The translations under genes were made by a program, and so were the position numbers. A DNA stretch of 62,133 nucleotides from Planctomycetales bacterium (lineage in GTDB: Bacteria > Planctomycetota > Planctomycetia > Isosphaerales > Isosphaeraceae), in the NCBI GenBank assembly GCA_027451885.1, contig DAIDHX010000127.1:1-62133 (forward strand), written 5' to 3'. Positions 12,118-55,380 of this stretch are shown here, one piece after another. The first letter of the stretch is position 1. Each line of letters opens with the position of its first letter. The notes beneath the pieces were generated by a model that was not told the origin of the DNA, did not search any database, and worked only from the letters and a program-made list of their open reading frames with translations.

Positions 12118-13635
12118 ATGACACGTCTATGCAGTGAGCAGGTCGCGGTTCGTTCGCTCTGTTCGGTCGTCGTCGCCGCTGGATTTGTGCTCGCGGCCGG
12201 ATGCCAGGGCTCGAAGCCGCCCGCCCCTCCCGCGCCACCCGCCGTGACCGTGGTCGTCTCCAGGAAGATGACTCTGCCGATCGAGGTGAATCCCATCGCG
12301 ACCACACGAGCGCTGGAAGACGTCACCATCCGAGCCCGCGTCAAGGGCTTCCTGCACGAGAAGCACTTCGAGTACGGCCAGAATGTGAAGAAGGGCCAGC
12401 TTCTACTTGTCATCGAGGAAGAGCCGTACAAAATTGCGCTCGAGCAGGCGAAGGCGACTCTCTCCGCGGCCGAGGCCGGTCTTGCCAAGGCCAGGGCTTC
12501 CCGCCAGCCCGAGATCTCCAAGGCCAAGCTCGCCCTCGACCAGGCCCAGCTCACGCTCGACCAGATCGAGGAGCGCAGGGAACGGTCGCTGCTACAGCGC
12601 AAGGCGGCATCACAGGACGACTACGACAAGGCGGAAGCCCAGCGCAAGAAGAGCTTGGCGCAGGTCGAAGCTGACAGTGCGGATTTCGAGCAGGCGAAAT
12701 CGGATTATGATATCAACATAGCAAAAGCCAGATCCGACGTCGAGGAGGCAAAAGCCAAGGTCGATGATGCGCAGCTCAATCTCAGCTACTGCCGGATGTT
12801 TGCGCCGATCAACGGCCGGATCGGCGAGCTCAAGGTCAAGGTGGGGAACCTTGTCGGCGATGCGCAATCCACGGAGCTTGTGACCATCCAGCAGCTCGAC
12901 CCGATGGGTATCGATATTCGTCCTGCCGCGCGTTACCTGCCGGTTGCGACCGCGCTCCAGAAGACAGGGATCGAAATCGAGCTGTTGGTCGAGGGTGAGC
13001 GCGTGCACCCGCATCTTGCCCATTCCACGTTCATTGATAATGCGGTGGATGCGACCACGAGCACGTTCCTCGTGCGTGCGGAAGTGCCCAACCCGGACGG
13101 CGCGATCCTGCCGGGTGAATATATCCAGGGAACCATGACCATCGGTGAGTACGTCGACGCCGTCGTCGTTCCCGAGCAATCGGTTGTGGAGAGCCAGGAC
13201 GGCTCGCAGGTGATGGCGCTTGATGATTCCGGCGCCGTGGTGGTTGTGAAGGTCAAGCCCATCGATGTTGTGAAGGGCATGCGGGTGATCGAGTCCGGGC
13301 TCGAGCCGGGCCGCAGGGTGATCGTCGAGGGAATTCAGCTCGTGCGCCCTGGTCAGAAGGTCGCGCCGGAAGAACTACCACTGGAAAACTACATGCGAGA
13401 GACCTCGGGAATCACCAGCCTCGATCAAAGGTTCACAAGCAAGGTCTCGCGCGTGCCGGGGATGGACGATCCGCCGAATGGCAAACCTGCGTCTCCATCA
13501 TCGAACGGCAAGTCCGCGACGCCAGCGAACGGCAAGTCCGCGACGCCAGCGGTCGAACCTACCAGGCCCGACGCCACCAAGCCCGTGTCCGTGAAGCCCG
13601 CCGCGGCTTCGACGGCCGGCGCATCGCCGAAGTGA
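12118..13635 (+). CDS. RND efflux periplasmic adaptor (membrane fusion) lipoprotein
   Basis: The 505-residue protein starts with a lipoprotein signal ending VLAAGC. It then shows the adaptor order: first half of the lipoyl domain (VTIRARVKGFLHEKHFEYGQ...VKKGQLLLVIE), a long helical hairpin of about 125 residues rich in Ala/Lys/Gln, the second lipoyl half (APINGRIGELKVKVGNLV), then beta-barrel and membrane-proximal parts (LPGEYIQGTMTIG, VVVPEQSVVES). The tail after about residue 435 is low-complexity Pro/Ala/Lys. It should bridge the pump encoded 10 bp downstream to an outer channel. No TolC-like gene is adjacent. An upstream in-frame ATG at 12088 is less likely, as it would bury the signal. 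Confidence 0.92.
   Translation: MTRLCSEQVAVRSLCSVVVAAGFVLAAGCQGSKPPAPPAPPAVTVVVSRKMTLPIEVNPIATTRALEDVTIRARVKGFLHEKHFEYGQNVKKGQLLLVIEEEPYKIALEQAKATLSAAEAGLAKARASRQPEISKAKLALDQAQLTLDQIEERRERSLLQRKAASQDDYDKAEAQRKKSLAQVEADSADFEQAKSDYDINIAKARSDVEEAKAKVDDAQLNLSYCRMFAPINGRIGELKVKVGNLVGDAQSTELVTIQQLDPMGIDIRPAARYLPVATALQKTGIEIELLVEGERVHPHLAHSTFIDNAVDATTSTFLVRAEVPNPDGAILPGEYIQGTMTIGEYVDAVVVPEQSVVESQDGSQVMALDDSGAVVVVKVKPIDVVKGMRVIESGLEPGRRVIVEGIQLVRPGQKVAPEELPLENYMRETSGITSLDQRFTSKVSRVPGMDDPPNGKPASPSSNGKSATPANGKSATPAVEPTRPDATKPVSVKPAAASTAGASPK
13503..13550 (+). repeat. Exact 24-bp tandem duplication inside the adaptor gene
   Basis: A 24-bp unit at 13503-13526 is repeated exactly at 13527-13550 and encodes two copies of NGKSATPA in the low-complexity tail. 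It is a likely slippage-prone minisatellite without effect on the folded domains. Confidence 0.85.
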
Positions 13636-51319: not shown

Positions 51320-52828
51320 TCAAAAGCACGTGCTGCAGAAAACATAAAACTTTGCCGTGCCGGTGATCGGCTTCGCGGCGGGGATTCCGGGACCGGTTAT
51401 TGTGACCTTGATGTCATATTCATCGGGGCTTCCGCCGGTTGTATACATGTGGGTCATGGCGATCCCGTACACGGTGTCATTAGCCCCTTCGCCACTCATC
51501 GGGTACAGAGGGCCAGCCGGATACAGAGAGGGGTTCGTCGTCGTCGTTCCATCCCCCCAGTTAATCGTGATCTGATACTGCGGAAGCCCCGCTCCGGGAG
51601 GATTGAATCCGAAGATGTAACCGACCATCCCGTTACTGTCGGGTGGGGGTGGCGGCGGCGGACCTCCCACAACTTCGTAGGCGCCGGAAACCATCTCAAG
51701 TGAAAGCGAGCTGAAGACGGTCAGGCTCGTGGTTCCTGTTATGCTCCCGCTCGCCGCGGCTCCGTTCGACCCCGAGATCTCCTCCTGGACCACCACCTGT
51801 AACTGAGAGGTGGTGATGGAGTTGAACAGTTGAGAATTGGCGATGCCCTGCGGCGTAAGGTAGACCGCGACGACCGGAGAGGCGCCATTGGCACCAGGTT
51901 GTATCTGATAGTAGACACCGTATGGGTGATCGATGTTATCAAGCTTGGTGCCTTTGGGTGTTGTAACTGTGATCAAAAACTGGTCGTGATTCGTCAGAGC
52001 GTCCGAGTCAGTGAAGTACCCGACCTCGATGGAAGTCTGTGAGGTCGGTACTGTCCCCACCGGTTCGCTGATCGGCGTCGGGACCCAGGTACGCTCGACC
52101 TCCTGGACGGCAAAGGGCGACTGGCTGTTGATCAAAACATCGCCGTGCCTCGCGCCATGGATTTGGAGGTACAAATCCACACTCGCCTGGCTGCTCATGC
52201 TGGTCTGCTCAGGTGCTGTATAACTGGGGACAATTACGTTGTAGAGACCCTTGCCGCCCGCGGCGCCCTGGATCTCAGGCTCCACTGGGCTGAGTGCGGT
52301 TGGGAAAGACACCGTGCTTCCTAACGAAACAAGGGAGAGGTTCCTGCTTCTGCCGACAAGCTGGATCTGGCCGACGATCATGTTGCTGACCGTGTCCCCC
52401 TCGTTCACAGTCTCCGGCACGGGGATGAATGCCGCGGTGATGCCGGAAACCTTCGCCCTGGTCGTGATCTCGACCACAGCCCCACCCTGGGGCTGGACGT
52501 CAACGGTAATGGGCACCTGCGTTTCGCCATTGTCGTAGCTGTGCTTGCCCTTGATCGTGAAGTGCCCACGCCCGGGCCCCCTGGCCACGATGCCAGCCGT
52601 GGTGACCCCATCCCCCCAGTTGATGGACACCTGGTAATCCTTGGGCGTGGCCGATCTGTCCGATGTCTGGAACGTGGCCACCGTGGCCGTGAAGCCTCGC
52701 CCCTCCCTGGCCTTCACGAGCTTGCCGATCGGGTGCAGCACATCAGGCGCGGCCAAAAGCTCACGCGCTTCGAGTGTCTCAAGCGAAAACGCTCGTCTGC
52801 GCCCACGTATGCGTTGATCGGTTCTCAT
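51320..52828 (-). CDS. Surface or secreted protein with LEPR-XLL-like start and two PKD-like domains
   Basis: The 502-residue product begins with a basic stretch and LETLEARELLAAP, close to the LEPR-XLL motif also seen in the giant protein at the left edge. Two beta-sandwich regions carry the same signature, YQVSINWGDGVTTAGIV (near 70) and YQITINWGDGTTTTNPS (near 440), which resembles PKD-type domains of secreted proteins. Between them is a large Ser/Thr/Val-rich beta region. A short Pro-run (GGPPPPPPPDS) separates the second domain. ATG 52828 is chosen because it places the motif near the start; its ribosome site is weak, and the frame opens further upstream to 52975. Confidence 0.75.
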   Translation of the reverse strand: MRTDQRIRGRRRAFSLETLEARELLAAPDVLHPIGKLVKAREGRGFTATVATFQTSDRSATPKDYQVSINWGDGVTTAGIVARGPGRGHFTIKGKHSYDNGETQVPITVDVQPQGGAVVEITTRAKVSGITAAFIPVPETVNEGDTVSNMIVGQIQLVGRSRNLSLVSLGSTVSFPTALSPVEPEIQGAAGGKGLYNVIVPSYTAPEQTSMSSQASVDLYLQIHGARHGDVLINSQSPFAVQEVERTWVPTPISEPVGTVPTSQTSIEVGYFTDSDALTNHDQFLITVTTPKGTKLDNIDHPYGVYYQIQPGANGASPVVAVYLTPQGIANSQLFNSITTSQLQVVVQEEISGSNGAAASGSITGTTSLTVFSSLSLEMVSGAYEVVGGPPPPPPPDSNGMVGYIFGFNPPGAGLPQYQITINWGDGTTTTNPSLYPAGPLYPMSGEGANDTVYGIAMTHMYTTGGSPDEYDIKVTITGPGIPAAKPITGTAKFYVFCSTCF

Positions 52829-54339
52829 GATCAATCGACTCGTTCGTTGAGTGGAGCGGCGAAGGGAGATCTGGGCCTTGATCGACAAACTCACTCGGAC
52901 CGCGTTTCGGACTCCGACATCGGAATCATTCATCTTCGACTGAAATAGTTGAATCGATTCATTTCCGAGATGCAAGCGTCCAGTGGATCATGTTGCAACG
53001 AATCATCGGCAGCGCCGGACTTGGCGGACTACGCCGTCCTGGGAGTGCGTAGCTCGTCGAGGTCCGTCGGTCGTACGGGAAATGGGGACGCAGGGCGAAG
53101 CTCGAGTGGCGGGTGGCCTGGAGATCGAAACCCTGACGGAACAGATACATCCTGCCCACCGACCATTTCAGGAGGTCGTGGCGGCCAGTGCGCCACGGTC
53201 ACGCAGGGGGCGAACCTCGCTACAACTCACACCCCCTGCGCAGGCCAACCCAGCCGAGCAGAAATCCAGACGTTCTGGACTCGAGTCGCGCTGGAGTGCG
53301 TTACATTAAAAGTGGGAAGATCCCTGAAAGGCATCTGAGCCTTTCCTCTTCCACGGCACACGCGACGCACCCTGGCGCATTCTGAGCGCACTCTCCACGC
53401 GCGAACATCGTCCCCCAGACGCATCGACACCAACCGTCGCCATCCTCGGAAGCGCCCACACCCGCGAACGCCGTCGGGTAAGAATCGTGCATGCGCTCCG
53501 CCTTTGTCGAATACGAGGATCAGCATGATCTGTCCGGTTATGCCAGTTCCGCGGTCGAGGGACATGATCGGCTGCCAGGCCGCGCGCTCGCGGAACGAAG
53601 CCATCGCGCCGAGACAAACCGAACCCACAGTGCTGGTCCAGACCGAACCCATTCCCCCCGCGCGAAGCGAAGCCAATGCCCCCGCGCGAAGCGAAGCCAA
53701 TGCCCCGCGCGAAGCGAACCCAAGCCGAACCAGGGATCGTCGCAAGGTGAAGCCATCACAAGAGAAACGCCAGCCGATCGCGCCCTCGCGAACCGAAGCC
53801 ATTGTGTGTGCGCGAACCGAAGCCATTGCGCCGAAAAACGGCCGCGTCCGGCGCGGAATCGTGCATCTGAAACTGGAACCAGATCGAGGAAGGATCGACG
53901 CCCGAATGAGCCGAAGACTTCGCGTCGAGGGAGGCGGAACCGACCTCTCACGAAGCTGGTCCAGGCCGTCGACCCGGGCCAGGCCGATCCAACGAACCAA
54001 AGCCAATCCGGCTGTCGAACCAGGGGCAGGTCCGGTCAGGTCAGCGCATGCCGATTCAGCATGCGTGGAGTTGTTGAACAGGAAGCGGGTCGGCGATGGC
54101 GGCATCAAGGATGCGCTGAACCCTTTGCCGAGCGGGGCGTCTGATCGGAGACCGAGGGCGCTCGGCGTGGCTCGCCGTATCGAGGATTGTGTAGACCGGG
54201 TGGGTGGGCGAACGCCCTGAAAGGAAACCATTGCGACCGGCGGGCGACAAAGTTAGCTTCAAGTCTTTGGCGAATCGCCGGTCGGGCGCCTCCGTCTGTG
54301 TCAATTCGCCTTGTTTTTCGTTTGTTTAAGGAATGTTCC
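52829..54339. other. 1.5-kb region without a convincing gene
   Basis: Open frames of 100-334 codons exist on both strands, but they are Arg/Ala/Ser-rich, have no domain and are made partly of repeated DNA (24-bp repeat at 53589-53834). A 9-bp inverted repeat CGCAGGGGG (53202-53210) / CCCCCTGCG (53232-53240) is also present. It should contain the promoters of the surface-protein and tdh genes. Confidence 0.6.
53589..53834. repeat. Degenerate 24-bp intergenic repeat array
   Basis: Near-identical units of about 24 bp (CGCGAAGCGAAGCCAATGCC and variants CGCGAACCGAAGCCATTG) begin at 53661, 53685 and 53708, and again at 53787 and 53811; a more diverged unit lies at 53589. Both clusters keep a 23-24-bp period. 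The pattern CGCGAAsCGAAGCCAwTG is not palindromic. One frame would encode (R/T)SEANAP- and TEAIAP-like repeats, the other WLRFA-like ones, but neither looks like a folded protein. Confidence 0.7.
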
Positions 54340-55380
54340 ATGGAGACGATGCAGGCCCTGGTCAAAAAAGAATCCAAGCCGGGGCTTTGGCTTGAGCAAG
54401 TGCCGATTCCCAGGATTGGGATCAACGATGTGCTGATCCGAGTCCTTAGAACGGGAATCTGCGGGACCGACCTGCATATCTATGAGTGGGACGCGTGGGC
54501 GCGGAAGACGATCCCTGTGCCGATGGTTGTGGGGCACGAGTTTGTGGGGGAGATTGTCGAGGTCGGCTCGAACGTCCATGACTTTCGCGTGGGCGAGATT
54601 GTGAGCGGTGAAGGGCACGTGGTGTGCGGCCATTGCCGGAACTGTCTCGCGGGCCGGCGGCACCTCTGCAAGGACACCAGGGGGGTGGGTGTGAACCGCC
54701 CTGGTGCATTTGCCGAGTATCTCGCGCTGCCGATGACGAACGTCTGGGTTCATGATCCCAAGATTCCGCGTGATGTGCAGTCGATTTTTGATCCGTTTGG
54801 CAACGCGGTCCACACTGCGCTTCAGTTCGACGTGCTGGGCGAGGACGTGCTGATCACGGGGGCGGGGCCGATTGGGGTGATGGCCGCGCGGATTGTGCGG
54901 CATGCGGGTGCGCGGCATGTGGTGGTGACCGACATCAATCCCTACCGGCTCGAGCTGGCACGCAAGATGGGCGCGACGCTCACGCTCGACGTGCGCACCG
55001 AGAGCATCAAGGACGCGCAGACGAAGCTGGGGATGAAGGAGGGTTTTGACGTCGGGCTCGAGATGTCCGGCAATCCCGAGGCCTTCCGCGACATGCTCGA
55101 GAACATGTGCCACGGCGGCAAGATCGCCATGCTTGGCATTCCCAGCCGGGAGCTTGCGATCGACTGGAACGTGGTTGTGTTCAACATGATCACCATCAAG
55201 GGGATCTACGGCCGCGAGATGTATGAGACCTGGTACAAGATGACGGTCATGCTTCAGTCGGGGCTCGACATCAGCCCGGTGATCACCCATCGTTACGACT
55301 ACCGCGATTTCGAGAAGGGCTTCGCGGCGATGAAGTCGGGCGACTCGGGCAAGGTGATTCTCACCTGGCGTGAAGGCTAA
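54340..55380 (+). CDS. tdh: L-threonine 3-dehydrogenase
   Basis: The 346-residue zinc-dependent, NAD-linked dehydrogenase converts L-threonine to 2-amino-3-ketobutyrate. It has the catalytic zinc ligands in [13 protein letters not shown] (Cys41) and GHEF (His66, Glu67), the structural-zinc Cys cluster [15 protein letters not shown], and the Rossmann loop [18 protein letters not shown]. The dimer/product region [16 protein letters not shown] is typical of Tdh. AAGGA lies 7 nt before ATG 54340. kbl follows after 18 bp, forming the complete threonine-to-glycine pathway. Confidence 0.95.

Follow-up and report, generated by a model that had tools for sequence, protein, structure and literature searches.

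What is the 24-bp repeat that lies in a gene-free part of this planctomycete contig, and does it do anything? In the window, by which the whole analysed stretch of 62,133 nucleotides is meant (contig C127 of a genome of 6.18 Mb in 316 contigs), a sequence-only reading had reported at least six degenerate units in two clusters with a period of 23-24 bp. The repeat is indeed present there, as attested by TRF, a repeat search, direct reading and shuffled controls. The clusters and the period hold, and the count is nine: read directly, the + strand of 53596-53825 carries nine boxes with the core CGAASCCA, eight exact and one variant. They start at 53596, 53620, 53644, 53668, 53692, 53715, 53748 (the variant), 53794 and 53818, and the spacing is 24 bp, with one of 23, the variant box joining the two clusters. 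TRF calls only the inner copies (53644-53723, period 24, 3.4 copies, 91% matches), and the repeat search finds five 47-nt copies in register, spaced by 24/48/24/102. On the + strand of 53201-54340 the exact core occurs 8 times, while 2000 dinucleotide shuffles of that region averaged 0.12 and never gave more than 2. Counting single 11-nt units over the whole window, one mismatch allowed, is far less striking (7 against 3.3 expected; 5 of 100 shuffles as high). The array is intergenic, as had been claimed; it is flanked by a - strand ORF at 51320-52975 and a + strand dehydrogenase-like gene that starts at 54340 and has alcohol dehydrogenase domains. The earlier consensus describes the local form well, while the commonest form in the genome, among the matches listed, is GCGAACCGAACCCATTGC. 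Two other tandem repeats were called by TRF in the window, namely a tandem duplication of 447 bp at 2-902 (91% matches) and a perfect repeat of 24 bp at 13502-13551 (2.1 copies), the sequence of which differs from that of the box array.

The repeat is the distal part of a larger head-plus-array element. The sequence-only reading had thus seen the repeat correctly but missed the head to which it forms the tail. The parts of the element are as follows.

53214..53825, + strand: whole composite element (head, linker, box array), its 3' end not sharply defined
53214..53388, + strand: head of about 175 nt, a diverged copy of the family head (nhmmer, BLAST)
53276..53307, + strand: candidate promoter-like pair in the head, TGGACT - 20 nt - TACATT, proposed from the sequence
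53596..53722, + strand: first cluster, six boxes CGAASCCA (53596, 53620, 53644, 53668, 53692, 53715; direct reading, TRF)
53748..53755, + strand: variant box TGAAGCCA, between the clusters (direct reading)
53794..53825, + strand: second cluster, two boxes (53794, 53818; direct reading)

A comparison of 40 loci shows the head as a conserved block that lies a few hundred nucleotides 5' of the first box and shares its strand. The window head is recovered by nhmmer with an E value of 6.6e-43, this copy itself being included in the training set. By BLAST, a typed 201-nt family consensus matches 53217-53354 at 75% identity (E 1.9e-19), and the window copy may accordingly be a decayed one. The same consensus has at least 40 BLAST matches in the window's genome, and there may be more, as scoring covered 40 of 62 candidates. 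When 64 stretches of this genome (63 loci and the window) were searched with a profile, 41 heads were obtained. A box array, of at least two boxes on the same strand, follows 38 of them, and for the remaining three the contig ends 429-724 nt further on. Exact boxes within 1500 nt of the heads number 298 on the strand of the head versus 2 antisense.

With up to 3 mismatches, GCGAANCGAAGCCAWTGC is found at 399 places in the window's genome versus 34 for the reversed pattern; the suspected dispersal is therefore real, and the repeat is multi-copy rather than a single occurrence per genome. The expected avoidance of genes holds for the most part, as 34 of the 38 head-plus-array elements overlap no ORF called by a simple home-made caller based on codon usage. 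The next gene downstream lies on the same strand as the element in 22 of 34 cases, and the next gene upstream on the opposite strand in 20 of 31. No Rfam family matches above its gathering cut-off in the four stretches scanned (the window, L067, L057 and L088). A conserved RNA fold of the head was considered and rejected. By alifold, the value is -1.04 kcal/mol and no conserved structure is seen. Two helices placed by hand are paired in 86.6% of cells, compared with 84.6% for shuffles, of which 25 in 500 reached the observed value; in covariation they do no better than shuffles, 101 of 500 matching their score.

What is kept among relatives is the box. They share CRRAACGAASCCAHY, with linkers unrelated to those of the window, so that the 24-bp unit first described stands locally, but between relatives only a box of 15 nt is kept and the linker is not. 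The pattern CGAASCCA-N10-22-ACGAASCCA is present in 23 of the 45 family genomes and gives 184 matches in sum versus 12 for its reverse; 89 of the 184 are in the genome G022, and part of them are coding repeats, e.g. in G005. In the 22 arrays of G022 that are among the matches listed, the bases flanking the searched 8-mer are conserved as well (CRRAA before it, HY after it; positions -5 to -1, +8 and +9), and the linkers are almost without information. The extended consensus is CRRA(A/C)CGAASCCAHY, about 15 nt long. The linkers are often identical within one array and unrelated from array to array. The period varies as well: G022 has 25 or 24 nt, G004 has 20, and an array of G009 has 25-27. In G004 (L155), the 20-nt box units alternate with modules reading GAGGCTCACCGGGAGGTTCGCCCTCCCAA.

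The head, used as a DNA query, was not found in 44 other family members; among 98 relatives nothing convincing was met, the single other match being in G094 (E 6.7e-4). Homology with the heads of relatives thus rests on architecture. Similarly, the local two-unit pattern occurs, among 59 genomes, in the window's own genome only. A strict three-unit AAGCCAA pattern occurs in 8 of 392 genomes of a phylum sample, and the seven outside the own genome look by eye like coding repeats. A scan of named genomes gave at least 97 stretches, most of them in other phyla and many coding-looking by eye; Nostocales arrays of 21 nt and Bacteroidales arrays of 25 nt are not obviously coding. Taken alone, the box pattern is thus not confined to planctomycetes, and the similar box spacings elsewhere, although much of this looks coding by eye, leave a restriction to one bacterial family unproven. 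The Nostocales units read CGAACCCA (e.g. the Nostoc loci L194 and L215), and in the Bacteroidales MAG CAJAXK01 units of the CGAAGCCAATTGAAC type lie on five contigs (L189, L191, L198, L220, L240). A three-box pattern is also seen in one viral contig, L387.

In G022, a shared head lies 5' of 14 of the 22 listed arrays (profile seeded from three loci), and its second part reads CTCTTTGRCAAT, which resembles boxA, the rRNA antitermination site, and was tested for this identity. The motif TCTTTGRCAAYYYG occurs 42 times in G022, 17 in G061, 18 in G010, 18 in G027 and 12 in G020, with 2 control matches in all. According to 16S searches, it flanks the 16S gene on both sides in all 4 operons of G022 and all 3 of G061; the 16S placement was confirmed by Rfam in one operon of each. 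From its position in all seven operons, TCTTTGRCAAYYYG is the own rRNA boxA of G022 and G061. In G027, it lies upstream of the single 16S found.

Every TCTTTGRCAAYYYG site outside rRNA operons was then surveyed, 34 in G022 and 11 in G061. In G022, 9 of the 34 have at least two boxes within 700 nt downstream, 16 lie 20-56 nt past the stop codon of one gene family, none is of both types and 9 are of neither. In G061, 8 of 11 are array-type and none is gene-type; one non-rRNA site of this genome (L377) lies inside a cluster of 25 tRNA genes. Exact boxes downstream of boxA number 59 sense and 1 antisense in G022, and 28 and 1 in G061; upstream, there are 32 sense boxes in G022 and none in G061. 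At random positions of the same G022 loci, at least two boxes follow in 48 of 9094.

A promoter-like motif precedes boxA in these units. In G022 it is GCAACT, 44-65 nt 5' of boxA in 9 of 9 array units, and in G061 it is GTGAYT-N20-T[AG], in 8 of 8; the averages in shuffles are 0.3 and 0.02, respectively. GCAACT was first noticed in three of the nine units, so that six are independent, and it is also present at 5 of 25 other boxA sites of G022. In the window's genome, TTGAYT-N20-TA occurs in 26 of 41 heads with a gap equal to that of the G061 motif, and the pair in the window itself is a variant outside this pattern. An rrn-type boxA between promoter-like motif and array was found in the relatives only (9 units in G022 and 8 in G061). 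The window's genome has no TCTTTGRCAAYYYG; its own 16S, which would be the source for its own rrn boxA, is missing from the assembly, and a scan of its 41 heads for boxA-like sequence gave 9.39 of 14 matches versus 9.30 in shuffles. For the window element, boxA is therefore carried over from the relatives, and the case for this element is built on the box and the order that it has in common with them and on its promoter spacing.

The box is also found in genes. In G001, and likewise on 16 contigs of the window's genome, a repeated gene carries it in frame in its tail. In G022, the genes that end 20-56 nt before boxA are 16 paralogues of an uncharacterised family with a motif like ANRRNAxxSTGPxTxEGK (L347-L371, L383), and for 15 of the 16 the 700 nt upstream of boxA contain one exact box or more. 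The reading frame of the box differs between genomes, giving ERSH in G022 and TEAI or SEPT in G000 and G001. Motifs of the ER[ST][HQ] type occur 21 times in 13 of the 16 G022 genes. Within them glutamate is written GAA in 21 of 21 cases, versus 123 GAA and 379 GAG gene-wide (Fisher p 4e-14), and CGA is used in 20 of 21, versus 76 of 831 arginine codons gene-wide (Fisher p 3e-21), p values that overstate independence because the genes are paralogous and the motif was chosen after sight. The frozen third positions mean that the box inside genes is constrained as nucleotides rather than as peptide. The proteins had no match in profile searches of Pfam (three sequences), NCBIfam, PHROGs and PDB. 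Downstream of the box-bearing gene in the window's genome (L304, L308-L314) stands a further tandem repeat of about 23 bp, resembling GTCGGGCAGACCGGCGGCGGTGA.

Four other accounts of the arrays were weighed against these results, two of which concern coding sequence. That the arrays encode a real repetitive protein (TEAIAP/RSEAN) is very improbable. In the window array, two frames run from first to last box without a stop (0, 0 and 1 stops per frame), but 45 of the 171 box spacings shorter than 40 nt shift the frame, the other 126 being divisible by three, and in 22 of the 38 elements every one of the three frames is interrupted by stops within the array. Four ORFs at the window array had no Pfam match except one at chance level, 0.014. 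The frame-shifting spacings, together with the common stops, make coding unlikely, and the elements of the window's genome are apparently non-coding; a coding repeat was rejected on these grounds, and an in-frame conserved protein is not what is seen. The peptide forms, suspected of being false annotations, are not simply spurious, since in-frame copies occur in multi-copy ORFs, where the box is constrained as nucleotides. It is somewhat less improbable, though still unlikely, that the arrays derive by decay from the 3' end of the multi-copy gene with the in-frame box tail. For such an origin speak the gene tails of G000 and G001, which contain the same box, its presence in nearly all G022 genes with boxA after the stop, and a period of 24 bp, a multiple of three. 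Yet tblastn with the first 175 residues matches only the gene-tail contigs (L182, L165), every other match including the window having an E value of 0.57 or worse; the boxA sites of G022 divide into 9 array-type and 16 gene-type with none that are both; and the arrays possess a head of their own. On the tblastn result, arrays as broken gene copies were rejected, though the account is kept here as a rival.

The other two accounts concern DNA. A selfish, non-autonomous mobile repeat with no host function, spread by some transposase and with 24-bp units that are internal tandem duplications, is conceivable, and we regard it as a possible but not a probable explanation. The copies are 80-91% alike at many loci, contig ends hold many of them, and seven loci have long upstream flanks in common (up to 739 nt at 92%), so that part of the family was copied recently; a partial IS200-like (Y1_Tnp) gene (L071:3-458, - strand) is found 203 nt from one of the heads. 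Against this, an unsystematic look showed neither terminal inverted repeats nor target duplications, the right end is variable, and a transposase was noticed at one locus only; moreover, the box is kept between genera while the linkers are not, and it is frozen in coding genes, neither of which would follow from mere spreading. The boxes could also act as DNA sites for a nucleoid, partition or regulatory protein, as their regular spacing, their non-palindromic, asymmetric sequence and their intergenic position would allow. The strong strand bias relative to head and boxA and a spacing that varies from 20 to 33 nt between genomes, by which helical phase is not kept, make this improbable.

The reading that we favour, to which we assign a probability of roughly 0.42, is that the window repeat makes up the 3' part of a non-coding transcription unit, that this unit belongs to a set of at least 41 related ones in the window's genome, and that its product would be a multi-site RNA that titrates a factor. 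Transcription would start at the promoter-like head and give a long untranslated RNA with an array of CRRA(A/C)CGAASCCAHY. In the relatives, the boxA between promoter and array would load Nus factors onto RNA polymerase, and antitermination by the Nus-loaded polymerase would keep Rho from ending the untranslated transcript. A promoter-like motif, a boxA and an untranslated array on the same strand are what would be expected of a long non-coding RNA escaping Rho. Binding would then take place at each box, the boxes being unstructured in their sequence context, with one copy of a trans-acting factor per box and the linkers unconstrained; the constancy of boxes and the freedom of linkers are suggestive of repeated binding sites. 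By titration, or by gathering, the array RNA would control the box-binding factor in a CsrB-like logic. The messages of the gene family, which carry the same box and so may share its reader, would be natural competitors or targets. It is a more doubtful proposal that the boxA-led array RNAs, dozens per genome, and the large family of paralogous genes with box and post-stop boxA form the two arms of one circuit around a putative box-binding factor, which would be a new regulatory system of a single planctomycete family.

As for what the box might resemble or pair with, G022 and G061 both carry an exact box, GGACCGAACCCACC, on the sense strand of their 23S (L385:5079, L386:5442), with further sense boxes in the 16S (L385:3505) and 23S (L385:4783) of G022 and at L386:5917; the rRNA stretches examined contain no exact antisense box. 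Such boxes may have arisen by chance in conserved rRNA, or they may hint at mimicry of rRNA, and, with a sense box in the 23S of both relatives, array RNAs could serve as ribosomal RNA decoys. Complementarity of the box to tRNA T-arms was dismissed, as it fits CGAACCCA but not CGAAGCCA, and complementarity yielded no named target.

The sponge role is an analogy with CsrB and CsrC, RNAs whose repeated GGA motifs in hairpin loops bind CsrA. The arrays, if untranslated RNA as proposed here, resemble them in having many short motifs at roughly regular spacing; they differ in that the motif CGAASCCA has no GGA core in G022 and no supported structure, and in that arrays lie at dozens of loci. Stringer et al. 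2020 reportedly described CRISPR arrays led by boxA. According to PMC7862264, which cites that work, boxA is reported before natural CRISPR arrays, and adding boxA is reported to have raised distal array expression. The units of the relatives are alike in having boxA between a promoter-like motif and a long repetitive array, apparently untranslated, but unlike in their box of about 15 nt, their linkers, which measure about 8-20 nt and often recur unchanged in an array, and their want of spacers. CRISPR repeats are about 21-40 bp long with unique spacers, whereas the box has 8-15 nt and linkers recur within arrays. A CRISPR array was therefore rejected, as it had been in the sequence-only reading. 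With the rRNA operon, the arrays of G022 and G061 share an identical class of boxA, beside 16S and before arrays; the differences are that the array product is not rRNA and that boxA was not detected in the window's genome.

REP/BIME elements, as described in PMC3733652, are likewise dispersed, mainly intergenic and present in many copies; the box arrays are non-palindromic, stand in tandem behind a head and are longer. The palindromic unit of 20-40 bp has no counterpart, there being no close inverted pair within the window array; the repeat is thus not palindromic, as had been noted, and REP was rejected. A check for RAYT, at L071 only, gave the partial Y1_Tnp gene 19.3 bits with the NCBIfam RAYT model, whose cut-off is 80. 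Leptospira interrogans and Methanocella conradii are reportedly the only sources of the dispersed non-coding families named by the satellite survey PMC6749651. Such satellites are tandem repeats at several loci, as here, but differ from the present arrays, which have a conserved box, differing linkers and a head. The literature searched, a partial collection, holds no description of these repeats, and the arrays behind an rRNA-type boxA point to an undescribed family of long repetitive RNAs.

If this reading is true, a bacterial family would set aside tens of loci for long non-coding RNAs of repetitive sequence, made with the help of the rRNA antitermination signal. The use of boxA would then extend past rRNA, tRNA clusters and CRISPR arrays. 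An RNA motif would be gained together with a putative reader, and the puzzling repetitive hypothetical proteins would find an explanation.
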